From Herbiconiux sp. VKM Ac-1786 (GTDB lineage Bacteria > Actinomycetota > Actinomycetes > Actinomycetales > Microbacteriaceae), in the NCBI RefSeq assembly GCF_015350805.1, contig NZ_JADKSG010000001.1, positions 1,722,513 to 1,786,512 on the forward strand: a stretch of DNA of 64,000 nt, written 5' to 3'. The position numbers and the translations under genes are program-made. The stretch's first letter is position 1. Each line of letters starts with the position of its first letter. This document shows, piece after piece, positions 14,966 to 21,336 of the stretch. The notes beneath the pieces were generated by a model that saw only the letters and a program-made list of their open reading frames with translations, searched no databases and was not told where the DNA came from.

Positions 14966-16858
14966 TCAGAGCGCGCGCAGCAGGAACTCGCGCATCCGCT
15001 CGATCAGGGCGAGGCGGGACGACTCCCGTCGGTACTCGTGCCCTTCGCCCGCGAGCTCGAGGTACTCGACGGGCCGCTCCAGCTCGCGCAGGGCCAGCAC
15101 GATCCGGTGCGCCTCGCCGATCGGCACGTTGGTGTCGAGCTCGCCGTGCACGACGAGCAGCGGCACGTCGATGCGCTCGGCCTTCCCGAGCGGCGAGATG
15201 GAGCGCAGGAATTTCTTGTCGTGGTCGGGATGCCCGTACTTCGTCACGGCGGCCGCGGCGATCCACGGCTCGGTCTCGGCGTAGAAGGTGAGCAGGTGCG
15301 ACATGCCGCAGATGTCGACGCCCGCGGCGAAGACCCCCGGCGTGAAGGCGAGGGCCGCGAGCGTGAGGTAGCCGCCGTAGGAGCGCCCGGTGACGGCGAT
15401 TCGGTCGGCCGAGGCGACGCCGATGCCGATCAGGTGCTGCGCCGCCGCCGTCACGTCGTCGAAGGCGCCCTGGCGCTTCTGCACGTCGTCGGCGTGCACG
15501 AACTCGCGACCGAAGCCGGAGGAGCCGCGCACGTTCGGGGCGAAGACGGTGATGCCCGCCGCCGCCATCACCTGGTGCTGCGGGCTGAAGGTGGGCCGCT
15601 CCTGCGACTCGGGGCCGCCGTGCAGGTGCAGCATGGCGCGACCGGGCGAGGCGGCCCCGGCCCCGGTGCCGGCCCCGGTGGCCCGGTACAGCCACCCCGT
15701 GATCTCGAGCCCGTCGAGCGACCGGAACCGCTCGAGGCTCGGCTGCACGAGCGGCACGGCGGGCAGCGCCGGCACGTCGCTCACCCGCGTCCAGGCGAGC
15801 GTCGCGGTGTCGAGGTGCCAGAGCTCCCGCGGTCGCAGCGGGCCCTCGACGGCGAGCAGCACGCTCGAGCCGTCGCGGCTGAGCACCGGGCTCGTCGCCA
15901 CCGCGCCGGGCAGCCCGGGCACCGGCACCGAGGTCTCCGTGTGCGTGTCGAACAGCTCGAGCTCGCTGCGCCCGGCCACGTTCCAGACGAGCAGCAGCAG
16001 CCGTCCGGCGTCGTCGCCGTCGAGCCCCTCGAGCTCGGCGTCGTCGCGGGCTGCCAGGGTGCGGGTCGGTCGCGACCAGTCATCGGGATCGACCGGTGCG
16101 GCCACGAGCTGCAGCCGGGGCAGCCCCACCTCGGTGGCGGCGTAGACGACGGCCGGCGCCGCCGCTCCGGGAGGGGAGGGCCGGATGAACGCCCGGTCGG
16201 TCGCCCCGCGCCCCGGATGCGGCAGAACGGGGTGGTCGGTGTCGGTCTCGCGGTCGACCACCACGCAGAACTCGTGCCCCCGGCGCCCGTCGCGCACCAC
16301 GAGCATCCGCTCGAAGGCCGAGAGGTCGAGCACGTGGATCAGCTCGCCCACCGCGAGCAGGTCGAGCTCCCCGGTGGAGGGGTCGGCGAGGTAGGCGCGC
16401 GTCGGTTCACCCACCTCGGTCGAGGGCACGGTGAGCACGACGCGGTGGCCGCTCCTCGTCCACGGCCCGAGCTCGACGTGCCGCTCGGGCGGGCCGGAGA
16501 TGCGCCGGGCGTCGCGGCCGTCGGGGCGCACCACCCAGACCTGGGTGCGCACGCCGCCGTCGGTCGCGACCGCGCAGGCGAGCCAGGCGCTGTCGGCCGA
16601 CCAGCTGACCGAGATCACGGGGTCGTCGGTGAAGCGGATGCGCGTGGCCGGCGCTCGCGGCCCCTCGAGCACCACGTCCTGCACCCACACCTCGGGCGCC
16701 CCGCCCCGGTCGCTGATGAACGCGACCCGGGCCGCGTCCGGCGTCATGGACGGGCCCCAGCTGCCCCACGCGCCCACAAGGGCCGCCGCGAGGCCGGCCG
16801 AGCCGCCGGATCCGCCGGGTCCGCTCGATCCGCCGGCGGCGGGAACCGCCCCCGTCAT
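14966..16858 (-). CDS. Prolyl oligopeptidase family (S9) serine peptidase
   Basis: 630 residues: an N-terminal seven-bladed beta-propeller (about 25-370, with repeated D-x-x-W/S strands such as VSWSADSAWLACAV) and a C-terminal alpha/beta hydrolase with GRSYGGY (Ser493), HGELDTNVP (Asp575) and GEGHEY (His607). No signal peptide, so cytosolic. The ATG overlaps the stop of the amidotransferase gene (ATGA), making it the last gene of a three-gene coupled operon. S9 enzymes cleave short peptides after Pro or acyl residues; in this operon a role in turnover or trimming of the peptide product is inferred, in the place that M42 peptidases take in the proteobacterial NAGGN clusters. Confidence 0.92.
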   Translation of the reverse strand: MTGAVPAAGGSSGPGGSGGSAGLAAALVGAWGSWGPSMTPDAARVAFISDRGGAPEVWVQDVVLEGPRAPATRIRFTDDPVISVSWSADSAWLACAVATDGGVRTQVWVVRPDGRDARRISGPPERHVELGPWTRSGHRVVLTVPSTEVGEPTRAYLADPSTGELDLLAVGELIHVLDLSAFERMLVVRDGRRGHEFCVVVDRETDTDHPVLPHPGRGATDRAFIRPSPPGAAAPAVVYAATEVGLPRLQLVAAPVDPDDWSRPTRTLAARDDAELEGLDGDDAGRLLLLVWNVAGRSELELFDTHTETSVPVPGLPGAVATSPVLSRDGSSVLLAVEGPLRPRELWHLDTATLAWTRVSDVPALPAVPLVQPSLERFRSLDGLEITGWLYRATGAGTGAGAASPGRAMLHLHGGPESQERPTFSPQHQVMAAAGITVFAPNVRGSSGFGREFVHADDVQKRQGAFDDVTAAAQHLIGIGVASADRIAVTGRSYGGYLTLAALAFTPGVFAAGVDICGMSHLLTFYAETEPWIAAAAVTKYGHPDHDKKFLRSISPLGKAERIDVPLLVVHGELDTNVPIGEAHRIVLALRELERPVEYLELAGEGHEYRRESSRLALIERMREFLLRAL

Positions 16859-18645
16859 CGGATGCCGTGCTCCTGCAGCCACATCTCGAGCAGCGCGAGC
16901 TGCCACAGGGCGTTCGAGCCCAGGGTCGTGCGGTCGGAGTTGGGGTCGGCGAGCATCCGTTCGACCCTAGCCGTGTCGAACAGCCCGCGCTCCCGGGCGG
17001 CCGGATCGTGCAGCGCCGCCCGCACGCGCTCGAGGTAGGGACCCTCGAGCTGCCGGATGGCCGGCACCGGGAAGTAGCCCTTGGTGCGGTCGATCACCGC
17101 GTCGGGCACGAGGCCCCGGCTGGCGCGCTTCAGCACCCCTTTCCCGCCGTCGGAGAGCTTCAGCTCCGGCGGGATCTGCGCCACCAGCTCGACGAACTCG
17201 TGGTCGAGGAACGGCACGCGCGCCTCGAGGCCCCACGCCATGGTCATGTTGTCGACCCGCTTCACCGGGTCGTCGACCAGCATGGTCATCGTGTCGTTGC
17301 GGAGGGCGGCGTCCACCGAGGTCTCGGCCCCGGGCCGCGCGAACTCGGCGGCGAGGAACGCCGTGGCGCTGTCGGGCCGGGTCGCATCGCGCCAGGCCGG
17401 GCCGAGCAGCTGCTGCAGCTCGGCCCAGGGCCGGTCGACGAAGACGCGCGAGTAGGCCTCGACGGCGCCCTCTCGCGGCACACCCGCGAGCGGCGGGTAC
17501 CAGTCGTAGCCGCCGAGCACCTCGTCGGCGCCCTGCCCCGACTGCACCACCTTGACCGACTTCGAGACGTCCTCCGAAAGCAGGTAGAAGGCGACGCAGT
17601 CGTGGCTGACCATCGGCTCGCTCATCGCCGCGACCGTGCCGTCGATGCCGGGCAGCAGGCGCGAGGAGTCGATCGAGATGCGGTGGTGGTCGGTGCCGAA
17701 GTGCCGCGCCACGAGGCTCGAGTACTCGAACTCGTCGCCCGACTCGCCGCCGGCCGAGTCGAAGCCGATGCTGAAGGTGGCGAGATCGGTCTGTCCGGCC
17801 TCCGCGAGCAGGGCCACCACCAGGCTCGAGTCGATGCCGCCCGAGAGCAGCACGCCCACGGGCACGTCGGCGACCATCCGCCGCTCGACCGCGGTGCGGA
17901 GGCTCGCGATCAGCGCCTCCTGCCAGTCTTCGTCGCTCCAGCCGGCCTTGTCGGGGTCGCGCTCGAAGGCGGGCTGCCAGTAGACGTGGTCGGATGCGCG
18001 GCCGTCGGGCTCGATCATCCGCACCGTCGCCGGCGGCAGCTTGGTCACCCCCGCGAGGATCGTGCGTGGCGCCGGCACGACCGAGTGGAAGCTGAGGTAG
18101 TGCTCGAGGGCAGTGCGGTCGATCGAGCTGTCGACGTCGCCCGACTCCAGCAGCGCCGGCAGCGTGGAGGCGAAGCGCAGCCGCCCGGGCCGCTCGTCGA
18201 GGTACAGCGGTTTGATGCCGAGGCGATCGCGGGCGAGCATCGCGCGGCCCGAGGCGTGCTCGACGACGACGAAGGCGAACATTCCGAGCAGGTGCTCGAC
18301 GCACTGCATGCCCCACTCGGCATACGCCTTGCCGATCACCTCGGTGTCGGAGGTGGAGAAGAAGCGGTGGCCCTTGCCCTCGAGCTCGGCGCGCAGCTGC
18401 CGGTGGTTGTAGATGCAGCCGTTGAACACCACGGTGAGGCCGAGTGGGGCGTCGACCATCGGCTGCGCGCCGGCGGCCGAGAGGTCGATGATGGAGAGCC
18501 GACGGTGGCCGAGGGCGACCCGGCCGTTCGACCAGAGCCCGGTGCCGTCGGGGCCGCGGTGCACCTGGCACGCGGTCATCCGGTCGACCGCGCCGAGGTC
18601 GGCGCTCCGGCCGTCGAAGCGCAGCTCGCCCGCGAGGCCGCACAT
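16855..18645 (-). CDS. N-acetylglutaminylglutamine amidotransferase-like protein (AsnB/AsnO family)
   Basis: 596 residues. Class II glutamine amidotransferase domain with Cys2 exposed after Met removal (MCGLAGELRFDG), HRGPDGTG and VVFNGCIYNHRQLR, then an asparagine-synthetase domain with the PPi-loop SGGIDSS (268-274). The start and overall sequence style (HRRLSIIDLSAAGAQPM; SDTEVIGKAYAEWG) match the amidotransferase that makes N-acetylglutaminylglutamine amide better than housekeeping AsnB. It lies 1 bp after the stop of the ligase gene and overlaps the S9 peptidase start. Predicted reaction: ATP- and glutamine-dependent amidation of a carboxyl group of a small peptide. The acceptor is not known here. 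Confidence 0.88.
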   Translation of the reverse strand: MCGLAGELRFDGRSADLGAVDRMTACQVHRGPDGTGLWSNGRVALGHRRLSIIDLSAAGAQPMVDAPLGLTVVFNGCIYNHRQLRAELEGKGHRFFSTSDTEVIGKAYAEWGMQCVEHLLGMFAFVVVEHASGRAMLARDRLGIKPLYLDERPGRLRFASTLPALLESGDVDSSIDRTALEHYLSFHSVVPAPRTILAGVTKLPPATVRMIEPDGRASDHVYWQPAFERDPDKAGWSDEDWQEALIASLRTAVERRMVADVPVGVLLSGGIDSSLVVALLAEAGQTDLATFSIGFDSAGGESGDEFEYSSLVARHFGTDHHRISIDSSRLLPGIDGTVAAMSEPMVSHDCVAFYLLSEDVSKSVKVVQSGQGADEVLGGYDWYPPLAGVPREGAVEAYSRVFVDRPWAELQQLLGPAWRDATRPDSATAFLAAEFARPGAETSVDAALRNDTMTMLVDDPVKRVDNMTMAWGLEARVPFLDHEFVELVAQIPPELKLSDGGKGVLKRASRGLVPDAVIDRTKGYFPVPAIRQLEGPYLERVRAALHDPAARERGLFDTARVERMLADPNSDRTTLGSNALWQLALLEMWLQEHGIR

Positions 18646-18646
18646 C

Positions 18647-21250
18647 TCAGTCGCTCCCCGGTGCCGCGGTGATCCAGGTGTCCTTCGACCCGCCGCCACG
18701 GGAGGAGTTGACCACCATGCTGCCGGCCGGGGCCACCCGGGTCAGCGCGAGATCGGCGACCTCCAGCCCGTACTCGCCCTCACCGGTGGCGTAGACGAAG
18801 ACGCGCAGGTCGACGTGCCGGGGTTCGAGGGCCGCGCCGGGCACGCCGGCCGCCTCGGCCCCGGGCATCGGCGGGGCGCCGTCGGCGAAGGTCGGGTGCG
18901 ACGACAGCGGCACGACCTCCTGCGCCACCCAGGTCTCGGGGTCGGCGGCGATCGCGGCCCGCCGCTCGGCCACCGCGGCGGCACCGGCCGCGGGTCCGAT
19001 CAGCACACCCTCGCCCCCGTGCCCGTCGACCGGCTTCGTGACGAGCTCGCCGACCCGTTCGAGCACGGTGCGCCGCTCGGCCTCGTCGCTCGTGCGGTAG
19101 GTCGGCACCTGCTCGAGCAGCGGCCGCTCGTCGAGGTAGTAGGCGATCAGAGCGGGCAGGTGGCAGTACATCGCCTTGTCGTCGGCGATGCCGTTGCCGG
19201 GGGCGTTGGCGAGGAAGACCCGGCCGGCGGCGGCCACGTCCAGGATGCGTGCCCCGATCGGTTCGCCGTCGACGGCGGCGTCGGGCAGCTCGACGTCCAG
19301 GCGCAGGTAGAGCGCGTCGAGCACGGTGCCGTCGGCCGCGACGACGACCCGGCCGTCGCGCACCGCGAGCTCGGACAGTTCGAGGAGGGCGAGGCCGGAG
19401 GTCTCGGCGAGCATCCGGTGCTCGAACCAGGCGCCGCTGGCCGGGCCGCTCGACACGAGGGCGGCGGCCGGCACCCGGTGCGAGTCGGCCGCGAGACCGG
19501 CGGCGACGCGACCGCCGGCGAGCAGCGTGCGGCGCAGCGAACCGAAGACGCGCTCGGGATCGAGCATGGCCTCGGGGCGGGGAGCCCCGTCGGCGACCTC
19601 GTCCATCAGCCGCCGGATCGCGACCGCGTAGGCGGCGCCGCTGGGATTCCGCACGTTGTCCTCGAGCACGCGCCAGCCGCCGAACTCGTTGCGCACGAGG
19701 TCGAAGCCGAACACGGCCGAGCGGGTGACGTCGGCCGGGAGGGCGCGGGCCGCGGGCATCCAGCCGGGGCTGCCCTCGATGACCGCGCGGGGGATGACGC
19801 CGTCGTCGACGATGCGCTGCTCGCCGTACACGTCGCGGAGGAACGCCTCAATGGCCCGGGCGCGCTGGGTCAGGCCGGCTGTGATCTGGGACCACTCGTG
19901 GGCGTTGATCACGCGGGGCACGAGGTCGACCTCGAAGGGGCGCTCCTCGCCGTCGACGCGGAAGGTGAGACCGTGCTCGCGCGTCCAGTCGCGGGCCGCC
20001 GAGCGGGCCGAGTCGACCTTCTCGGGGCTGAGGCCCTCGAAGTAGGCGATCAGCTGCTCGTAGGCGGGGCGGGGCCGCGAGCCGGGGCCGACCGCCTCGT
20101 CGCCGGCCCGGGTGCGGTAGGTGCGCAGGGCGGGCACGGCGGGCGGGATGCCCCCGGCCGGGCCGTGCGTCTCGTCGACCACGAGCTTCACCACGGCGTC
20201 GATGTCGCCGCGCTCGGCGAAGGCCGCGCGCTGCCGGTCGGCGGAGTTGCCGCGGGCGAGCAGCGTCTCGGCGAGGCCGACGACCTCCTCGTAGTCCCCT
20301 AGCTCCTCGAGCTGCGGGCGCAGCCGCCGGATGAGGTGCCGCACGGCGTGCGCGGCGGCGGTGGGGCGCGGATGCGGGCCGTCGTCGAGCAGGTCGCCCG
20401 ACAGCCCGCCGCGGGCCGCCTGCCACATGGCCGCGCGGTGGATGGGCGCCGGCACCGGGTGGTAGGGTCGGCCCTGCTCGATGTCGACCTCGGCGGCGCG
20501 CACGGCGGCGCGGAAGAGCCCGGCGATCAGCACCGCGTCGTCGACGATCGGGCAGGCGTCGCAGACCCGCAGCTCGAGCGTCGGGGCGTGCGAGGAGGGG
20601 CGCACCTCGAAGTAGGCCATCTTCGAGTCGGCGATCACCCCGGTGGCGATCAGGTCGGCGAGCAGTTCGTCGTACTCGGCGGCCGAGCCGAGGTCACCGG
20701 TGGCGCCGGCACTCGGCCAGCGCTGCCAGATGATCGAGCGGATGCTCGAGTAGCCGGTGTCGAGGCCGTTCCAGTACGGGGAGCTCGCCGAGATCGCGAG
20801 CAGCACGGGCAGGTCGCGGGACACCCGCTGGGCGATGTCGACGGCGAGGTCGCGGTCGCTCACCCCGACGTGGATCTGGGTTCCGCAGATCAGCTGCTCG
20901 TCCACCAGCAGGCGGTACTGCTCCTGCATCCGGCCGTAGCGTCCGGTCGTGGTCAGCTCGAAGTCGGCGAACTCCGAGCGGGGGGCCGTGCCGACGCAGG
21001 CGATGCCGACGCCGTCGGGGGCCGCCGCCTCGATCACGCCCCGGCGCAGCCGCAGGATCTCCTGACGCAGTCCGTCGAGGGTCGAGACCACGTCGGTGTT
21101 CGTCTCGACGGTGGTGCGCTGGATCTCGGCGGAGTAGTTCTCGGCCGGCAGCCTCGACAGGATCTGCGGCGCACGGGCCGACAGCTTCCCGCTCTCGAGA
21201 TCGATGAGGTGGAGCTCTTCTTCCGCACCAAGCGTCAACTCCGCTGCCAT
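18647..21250 (-). CDS. Fusion of GCS2-type carboxylate-amine ligase and circularly permuted ATP-grasp
   Basis: 867 residues. Residues 1-370 are a glutamate-cysteine ligase family 2 (YbdK-like) domain: TLGAEEELHLID, CGTQIHVGVSD, YFEVRPSSHAPTLELRVCD. Residues about 400-860 are a circularly permuted type 2 ATP-grasp: EVDLVPRVINAHEW, FDLVRNEFGGWRVLEDNVRNPSG, FLANAPGNGIADDKA, ELVTKPVDGHGGEGV, DLRVFVYATG. Both are peptide-bond-forming ligases that activate carboxylates with ATP. It is the first gene of the operon with the amidotransferase and S9 peptidase; TAGGGT (21257-21262) ends 6 nt before its ATG (leaderless). The pair of ligase domains suggests it makes a gamma- or alpha-linked di- or tripeptide; substrates not inferable. 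Confidence 0.9.
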   Translation of the reverse strand: MAAELTLGAEEELHLIDLESGKLSARAPQILSRLPAENYSAEIQRTTVETNTDVVSTLDGLRQEILRLRRGVIEAAAPDGVGIACVGTAPRSEFADFELTTTGRYGRMQEQYRLLVDEQLICGTQIHVGVSDRDLAVDIAQRVSRDLPVLLAISASSPYWNGLDTGYSSIRSIIWQRWPSAGATGDLGSAAEYDELLADLIATGVIADSKMAYFEVRPSSHAPTLELRVCDACPIVDDAVLIAGLFRAAVRAAEVDIEQGRPYHPVPAPIHRAAMWQAARGGLSGDLLDDGPHPRPTAAAHAVRHLIRRLRPQLEELGDYEEVVGLAETLLARGNSADRQRAAFAERGDIDAVVKLVVDETHGPAGGIPPAVPALRTYRTRAGDEAVGPGSRPRPAYEQLIAYFEGLSPEKVDSARSAARDWTREHGLTFRVDGEERPFEVDLVPRVINAHEWSQITAGLTQRARAIEAFLRDVYGEQRIVDDGVIPRAVIEGSPGWMPAARALPADVTRSAVFGFDLVRNEFGGWRVLEDNVRNPSGAAYAVAIRRLMDEVADGAPRPEAMLDPERVFGSLRRTLLAGGRVAAGLAADSHRVPAAALVSSGPASGAWFEHRMLAETSGLALLELSELAVRDGRVVVAADGTVLDALYLRLDVELPDAAVDGEPIGARILDVAAAGRVFLANAPGNGIADDKAMYCHLPALIAYYLDERPLLEQVPTYRTSDEAERRTVLERVGELVTKPVDGHGGEGVLIGPAAGAAAVAERRAAIAADPETWVAQEVVPLSSHPTFADGAPPMPGAEAAGVPGAALEPRHVDLRVFVYATGEGEYGLEVADLALTRVAPAGSMVVNSSRGGGSKDTWITAAPGSD

Positions 21251-21336
21251 GGGCTCACCCTACGAGGGTCTCCGGCCCGCGGACCGAATCGTCGACTGAT
21301 CGAAACATGGGGCCTTCCGGGACGGAGACGCTGTAG

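Follow-up and report, generated by a model that had tools for sequence, protein, structure and literature searches.

A GCS2/ATP-grasp ligase encoded with an NAGGN-family amidotransferase in Herbiconiux: an operon that may make an amidated gamma-glutamyl peptide

Introduction

Does an amidotransferase of the N-acetylglutaminylglutamine amide (NAGGN) family still serve NAGGN synthesis when its neighbours are not those of an NAGGN cluster? The question is raised by a three-gene operon of Herbiconiux sp. VKM Ac-1786 (Microbacteriaceae), which lies on the minus strand at positions 14966..21250 of a 64,000-nucleotide stretch of contig NZ_JADKSG010000001.1 (assembly GCF_015350805.1, positions 1,722,513 to 1,786,512), referred to here as the window. 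The operon encodes a bifunctional ligase (gene 1), an amidotransferase (gene 2) and an S9 peptidase (gene 3). NAGGN, a bacterial osmoprotectant, is a known actinobacterial product: Micromonospora provocatoris, for which asnO and ngg are reported, makes it as seen by nuclear magnetic resonance (PMC8146288), and the pathway is restated in PMC5563000. The TIGR03104 amidotransferase is common to the operon and to the NAGGN systems of Sinorhizobium meliloti, Azospirillum and Micromonospora, which have the form asnO-ngg with or without an M42 peptidase, and the Azospirillum NAGGN cluster (locus L209) follows the same plan of ligase, amidotransferase and peptidase. The end parts differ: NAGGN clusters pair the acetyltransferase/ATP-grasp synthetase ngg with M42, whereas the operon has a GCS2 domain joined to a circularly permuted ATP-grasp domain in place of ngg and S9 in place of M42, a difference that a sequence-only reading of this DNA had already pointed out.

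Results

Three coupled genes with an NAGGN-family amidotransferase at the centre

The three open reading frames (ORFs) run in the order gene 1, gene 2, gene 3, and that they form a real module is, in our judgment, virtually certain. Gene 1 (18647..21250, minus strand) encodes an 867-residue ligase in which a GCS2 domain of the gamma-glutamyl ligase type (PF04107, 167.7 bits) precedes a circularly permuted ATP-grasp domain of type 2 (PF14403, 344.6 bits). Gene 2 (16855..18645, minus strand) encodes, from its ATG, a 596-residue amidotransferase of the NAGGN (trio) family with a Cys2 glutaminase (PF13537, PF13522, PF00733), and gene 3 (14966..16858, minus strand) encodes, likewise from ATG, a 630-residue S9 peptidase (PF00326, 150 bits); the domain search of genes 2 and 3 used longer ORFs of 614 and 646 residues with upstream GTG starts. 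A single base separates the TGA stop codon of gene 1 from the ATG of gene 2, and genes 2 and 3 overlap in ATGA, so that the coupling, coordinates and domains given in the sequence-only reading are borne out. Because the domain scores lie far above curated cut-offs and the gene order recurs in other families, the operon is more than a chance arrangement. Tight spacing is not universal: the ligase stop lies within 20 bp of the amidotransferase start in 24 of 50 fusion loci, and S9 could start at most 20 bp from where the amidotransferase ends in 43 of 55 loci, the S9 starts being guesses.

Gene 2 exceeds the cut-off of TIGR03104, the equivalog model for N-acetylglutaminylglutamine amidotransferase, by a wide span (945.3 bits, cut-off 570.1) and also passes the broad model TIGR01536 (429.3 bits, cut-off 267.1), but on the AsnB model NF006949 it reaches 281.9 bits, below the cut-off of 499. 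Two actinobacterial AsnB-type proteins serving as controls, with TIGR01536 as their best model, score 315.8 and 319 on TIGR03104, below its cut-off. A protein of the S. meliloti 1021 pSymB replicon, which we take to be the characterised asnO product, scores 1037 bits on the same model and is 59% identical to gene 2. The genome of the window also encodes a non-discriminating aspartyl-tRNA synthetase (AspRS; TIGR00458, 378.6 bits, cut-off 368.4) and GatB (418 bits, cut-off 314.8), and free asparagine is therefore probably not the purpose of gene 2. A housekeeping AsnB identity was rejected on the TIGR03104 score, on AspRS and GatB, and on the tree described below, in which the AsnB rows form the outgroup; the earlier assignment of gene 2 to the NAGGN type thus stands. 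Membership of an NAGGN cluster was rejected as well, since the defining synthetase (TIGR03103) has no match in the genome at E <= 1e-60, gene 1 has other domains, and gene 3 is S9 and not M42.

The ligase/amidotransferase/S9 order recurs across the class

A survey of 197 genomes of the class, with TIGR03104 at E <= 1e-150 and TIGR03103 at E <= 1e-60, found the amidotransferase in 59, the NAGGN synthetase in 33 and both in 32, the two matches then lying within about 200 bp of each other. The gene neighbourhood of the amidotransferase was taken in each of the 27 genomes that lack the synthetase and in 15 of the 32 that have both. Among the 27, a GCS2 ligase adjoins the amidotransferase in 24 and S9 alone in three (G139, G173 and G190). 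Class, named and Microbacteriaceae loci were then typed together as 84 rows. S9 adjoins 52 of the 59 GCS2-linked rows, a GNAT gene replaces it in 4, and a contig end falls at or near the amidotransferase in 3. M42 adjoins 13 of the 17 ngg-linked rows, one of them being the query's own locus, and none of the 59 GCS2-linked rows; a single M42 protein from Azospirillum served as the tblastn query.

The best 80 loci of a scan of named genomes were listed, and 35 of those span both ligase domains. Among these listed matches, 30 of the 35 full-length loci have the amidotransferase downstream of the ligase, two of the 30 after a gap of 1.6-2.4 kb (a spacing seen in the Pseudonocardia loci L141 and L157); all three genes occur together in 27; and five lack the amidotransferase (L127, L130, L154, L156 and L159). 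The operon occurs in named Microbacteriaceae, Micromonosporaceae, Pseudonocardiaceae, Streptosporangiaceae, Frankiaceae, Mycobacteriaceae and others. Within the Microbacteriaceae, the amidotransferase occurs in 16 of 150 genomes, in 17 copies, and a full-length ligase in 15, with 3 further genomes matching the ligase in its GCS2 part only; the amidotransferase directly adjoins the full-length ligase in 13 of the 15, the exceptions being G287 and G339. The proposal that the triplet is conserved in relatives is upheld by these counts.

Locus L148, from a metagenome-assembled genome (MAG) of Nevskia, is the sole full-length ligase locus labelled Pseudomonadota among the matches listed; it nests with Mycobacterium in both the amidotransferase and the GCS2 tree and is probably a binning error.

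Amidotransferases of the two systems are closely alike

The amidotransferase tree was built from 83 rows and 5 AsnB outgroup rows, with L151 (partial amidotransferase) and L220 (partial AsnB) dropped. It resolves three clades, a ligase-linked clade of 61 rows (SH-aLRT 98), an ngg-linked clade of 17 rows (88) that includes S. meliloti and Azospirillum, and a third clade with 5 rows (92), of which three are located close to a divergent GCS2 gene. The tree was a quick one and its outgroup branches are long, which leaves the branching order of the clades unsettled. The ligase-linked clade takes in every one of the 27 class genomes that lack the NAGGN synthetase. Comparison of the ngg-linked and ligase-linked clades shows 197 of 596 positions near-invariant in both, the glutaminase Cys2 among them, and 45 of these 197 residues never occur in the five AsnB rows. 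At the 85% level only 4 of 596 positions (115, 530, 572 and 576) are fixed differently between the clades, which argues that both probably amidate the same kind of carboxyl end.

The 27 genomes with a ligase-clade amidotransferase and the 33 with an NAGGN synthetase do not overlap among the 197 (P 0.005 under independence, relatedness ignored). Strict mutual exclusion of the two systems was nevertheless rejected, as G064 has the synthetase together with a ligase/S9 pair, without the amidotransferase, and a full-length synthetase is present in 1 of 16 named ligase-operon genomes searched. The synthetase of G064 (L108:7839-9698) is full-length and has no amidotransferase nearby, and the genome gives no TIGR03104 match at E <= 1e-150. 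The other case is Mycobacterium sp. 1164966.3 (G350), whose full-length synthetase (L259:6962-8746) has no amidotransferase in the 15.7 kb around it, and in which the sole TIGR03104 protein found is that of the ligase operon. This orphan synthetase fits an acceptor common to both systems, though one draft genome proves nothing.

Gene 1 is a GCS2-type ligase fused to ATP-grasp

The GCS2 domain of gene 1 spans residues 7-280 (20411..21232, minus strand) and carries at residues 8-12 the sequence GAEEE, a motif of the Mg/ATP-binding GhExE type as defined in PMC2588565; GxExE is found within the first 40 residues in all 78 ingroup rows and in 4 of 5 outgroup rows. The circularly permuted ATP-grasp domain follows at residues 445-840 (18731..19918, minus strand). 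Gene 1 is placed among GCS2 carboxylate-amine ligases by PF04107, by TIGR02050 (258.6 bits) and by the motif. It passes the subfamily cut-offs of TIGR02050 and NF010041 and misses equivalog cut-offs (e.g. NF010040 and NF010043), and the EgtA model TIGR03444 is absent among its NCBIfam matches. Sequence relatives in the PDB are 3n6x, 1tt4 and 1r8g; the GCS2 domain has YbdK structures as its relatives, and the ATP-grasp half has 3n6x, with which its conserved motifs align. The predicted structure of gene 1 is of moderate quality (predicted local distance difference test (pLDDT) 71.6, predicted template-modeling score 0.52), so its Foldseek matches, which comprise eukaryotic-type glutathione synthetases, glutamate-cysteine ligases and bifunctional glutathione synthetases (3ln7 and 3ln6), are supportive only. 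Known GCS2 enzymes make gamma-glutamyl amides (PMC2588565), and formation of such an amide by gene 1 would follow by analogy with them. In its build the fusion resembles a tripeptide synthetase, the first domain of which would make gamma-Glu-X.

The ATP-grasp half is absent from part of the family. Clusters with GCS2 only occur in two places within the ligase-linked clade, giving two lineages without the fused ATP-grasp domain, and 7 of 8 tested genomes with such clusters (G018, G057, G112, G123, G191, G016, G087 and G151) have no PF14403 protein anywhere, G191 having one elsewhere. These genomes argue that GCS2 chemistry is the common core and that the ATP-grasp half is dispensable in those lineages. 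PF14403 is also absent from G173, whose amidotransferase has no close ligase. The genome of the window encodes a second circularly permuted ATP-grasp protein with no GCS2 match (G000:C1:1258992-1260356), and similar proteins occur in many genomes of the class.

Ligase fusions of 839-881 residues with neither amidotransferase nor S9 alongside are found at L251:8010-10655, L130:9001-11619, L252:8001-10565 and L156:8992-11511, the window's own genus included; L156 has a small GNAT gene after its ligase. The L251 match, in G287, counts one internal stop, though the ORF is of 881 residues, and the GCS2 part of this ligase from a genome of the same genus is identical to that of Herbiconiux moechotypicola L127. 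In the GCS2 tree, loci without the amidotransferase are scattered among those with it, a distribution best read as repeated loss of the amidotransferase. A third arrangement is seen in a Microbacteriaceae genome (G198, L247:7983-12629), where an M20 dipeptidase, a divergent GCS2 ligase and a TIGR03104 amidotransferase form one tight gene run; this amidotransferase falls outside the ligase-linked clade.

Gene 3 is an S9 peptidase

Gene 3 has the beta-propeller and alpha/beta hydrolase fold of S9 peptidases (model pLDDT 88.4, with matching folds). From the S9 family we take Ser493, Asp575 and His607 to be its catalytic triad, and these three columns are invariant in 20 aligned S9 rows. The closest solved protein in both sequence and fold is the acylaminoacyl peptidase 5l8s (template-modeling scores 0.86 and 0.90), yet identity in the structural alignment is 22% and gene 3 sits in a peptide-synthesis operon. 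The ligase and S9 occur together without an adjoining amidotransferase in four genomes of group f32 (L109-L112), in a Corynebacterium MAG (L154) and in Dietzia maris (L159). S9 thus stays beside the ligase where the amidotransferase is missing, and it probably acts on the ligase product.

Loci of the Frankiaceae clade

The nesting of a named Pseudofrankia (L152) inside genome group f21 is the reason for reading that group as Frankiaceae. Of the 15 amidotransferase rows of this clade, 8 have both S9 and a GNAT gene near the amidotransferase, and in 4 more the GNAT gene is present without S9; where both were read, S9 sits between amidotransferase and GNAT. Pseudofrankia-type genomes have the GNAT gene after the amidotransferase at the place expected for S9 (L083:6431-6907, L084:6453-6926, L088:6431-6907 and L152:13979-14440), and the GNAT of the 8 rows with S9 belongs to the same family as theirs. 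GNAT was rejected as a core part of the system: one query found it only in loci of the Frankiaceae clade, and in BLASTP against one NAGGN synthetase it gave no significant match (best E 0.34).

Upstream region

Leaderless transcripts carry a -10 pattern TANNNT close to the start codon. A possible element of this kind, TAGGGT, lies six bases before the ATG of gene 1 (21257..21262, minus strand), and TANNNT stands at the same distance from the gene 1 start in 11 of 12 upstream regions of the family aligned and read by eye, which suggests a leaderless transcript. A common osmotic promoter was rejected, as a sigma-70 scan gave no match and the upstream alignment contains only TANNNT near the start.

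Discussion

The reading that we favor, with somewhat more confidence than doubt, is that the operon makes and turns over a small C-terminally amidated gamma-glutamyl peptide on the same plan as NAGGN synthesis, with other end parts. In the first step the GCS2 domain, with ATP, would activate the gamma-carboxylate of glutamate and join it to an amino acid, most likely glutamine judging from the chemistry of the family, and the ATP-grasp half, with a fold like that of eukaryotic-type glutathione synthetases, may add a further residue where it is present. The amidotransferase would then hydrolyze glutamine, activate the C-terminal carboxylate of the peptide and amidate it, a step well supported by homology; its family reportedly acts on a small dipeptide in NAGGN synthesis, as Sagot is said to have described in 2010. 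As gene 2 is nearly unchanged relative to the NAGGN-linked enzymes, a C-terminal glutamine is again suggested as the accepting end. Finally, the S9 peptidase may hydrolyze the ligase product once it is not needed and return its amino acids. We hold it to be quite probable that the gene 1 peptide is the one amidated by gene 2, and a gamma-glutamyl linkage in the product is nearly as likely. For an osmolyte role the evidence is evenly balanced, and it is doubtful that the product is exactly gamma-Glu-Gln-NH2. A product of that sort would be a net-neutral zwitterion, with one amino and one carboxylate charge, and would thereby fit a compatible solute with no need for an acetylation step.

Several observations weigh against this proposal. 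Several relatives (L127/L251, L130, L252 and L156) retain the ligase with no amidotransferase, so the pair is not strictly interdependent, and, conversely, 3 of the 61 ligase-clade amidotransferases (L094, L096 and L098) have S9 but no close ligase nearby. In 12 of the 15 rows of the Frankiaceae clade the operon has a GNAT acetyltransferase gene in its vicinity, which would fit an acetylated product there. The substrates of GCS2 enzymes cannot be read from sequence, and no product, substrate or expression data were found for the operon.

The GNAT genes bear directly on the possibility that the operon makes NAGGN itself, gene 1 having replaced the NAGGN synthetase non-homologously and another gene supplying the acetylation. 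The nearly unchanged amidotransferase, the failure of the synthetase and the ligase-clade amidotransferase to occur in one genome of the class survey, and the Mycobacterium genome that pairs an orphan synthetase with a ligase-clade amidotransferase only are all consistent with it. We nevertheless consider it improbable, because GCS2 chemistry gives gamma-glutamyl bonds and not the alpha-peptide bond between N-acetyl-Gln and Gln, because no second ligase of these types was seen in GCS2-only clusters, and because a search with one query, which did not extend to other acetyltransferases, turned up no gene related to the Frankiaceae GNAT next to the operon of the window or next to any operon from outside the Frankiaceae. 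The resemblance of gene 1 to bifunctional glutathione synthetases raises a different alternative, that of a tripeptide amide similar to glutathione, serving redox or detoxification functions instead of osmotic ones, and NCBIfam indeed names the GCS2 part a glutamate--cysteine ligase. That name comes from a broad subfamily, the only kind of NCBIfam match above cut-off, and the lineages that dispense with the ATP-grasp half, mostly with no PF14403 protein to take its place, together with an amidotransferase that belongs to an osmolyte family, make this alternative about as unlikely as NAGGN itself.

Two further alternatives concern the kind of substrate. Pup ligase PafA is among the relatives of GCS2 enzymes (PMC2588565, PMC3511204), and the three genes might accordingly modify a protein or a cell-wall peptide and not a free small metabolite. 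The substrate of the amidotransferase family is a small dipeptide (PMC5563000), and clustering of neighbouring genes showed no obvious substrate gene, although the gene caller was crude, only ORFs over 90 residues were considered and most clusters had no annotation, so that a small precursor gene may have been missed; we regard modification of a macromolecule as very unlikely. Least credible of all is a role of gene 2 as asparagine synthetase of the cell, with the operon belonging to amino-acid metabolism. No other PF00733 protein was found in the genome, and gene 2 does pass TIGR01536, but it scores far higher on TIGR03104, it is separated in the tree from the AsnB outgroup, and the non-discriminating AspRS with GatB indicates that Asn-tRNA is made without free asparagine.

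Parts of the operon also have relatives among better-known systems. Gene 1 parallels GshF/GshAB in its architecture, a domain of the gamma-glutamyl ligase type fused to ATP-grasp, and has distant fold matches to 3ln7 and 3ln6; it differs in that its domains are GCS2 and CP_ATPgrasp_2, families other than those of GshF, in the amidotransferase encoded next to it, and in the absence of ATP-grasp from two lineages. With YbdK/EgtA-type carboxylate-amine ligases it shares the GCS2 domain and its GhExE motif, but unlike them it carries a fused ATP-grasp domain and has an amidotransferase gene as its partner.

The operon is a variant of the NAGGN kind that we did not find described, and it falls outside the family of NAGGN clusters proper. 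This claim to novelty carries one caveat, that the 2009 study of amidoligases by Iyer et al. may list the neighbourhood of ligase and amidotransferase. No paper was found that joins the name of the amidotransferase with carboxylate-amine ligase or glutamate-cysteine ligase, nor one on carboxylate-amine ligase with salt stress in Streptomyces, and for gamma-glutamylglutamine as a compatible solute only papers that appear to be plant and soil metabolomics came up. An 'asnO-ngg' cluster with a dipeptidase between the genes has been described in Frankia of Casuarina, its putative Ngg having <15% identity to known ones (PMC5563000); we infer that this 'ngg' is the GNAT gene or another neighbour and that the ligase went unrecognised there. 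Polyethylene glycol induces FRAAL1888, which is called NAGGN-related (PMC5768760); this gene could not be linked to the operon.

For genome annotation the consequence is practical: as 27 of the 59 class genomes with a TIGR03104 protein have no NAGGN synthetase at E <= 1e-60, prediction of NAGGN from the TIGR03104 gene alone is unsafe in actinobacteria. More tentatively, Actinobacteria may possess a further class of NAGGN-type pathway. In it a gamma-glutamyl ligase resembling glutathione synthetase, in place of an acetyltransferase/ATP-grasp enzyme, would feed the common amidotransferase to give zwitterionic gamma-glutamyl peptide amides as compatible solutes; the amidotransferase would be the constant core, and the ligase (ngg or GCS2, the latter either joined to ATP-grasp or alone) and the peptidase (M42, S9 or, in one case, M20) would be interchangeable. 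If this is true, the operon would represent a new class of small solutes in common soil lineages, among them Frankiaceae, Pseudonocardia, Actinoplanes, Microbacteriaceae and some Streptomyces.

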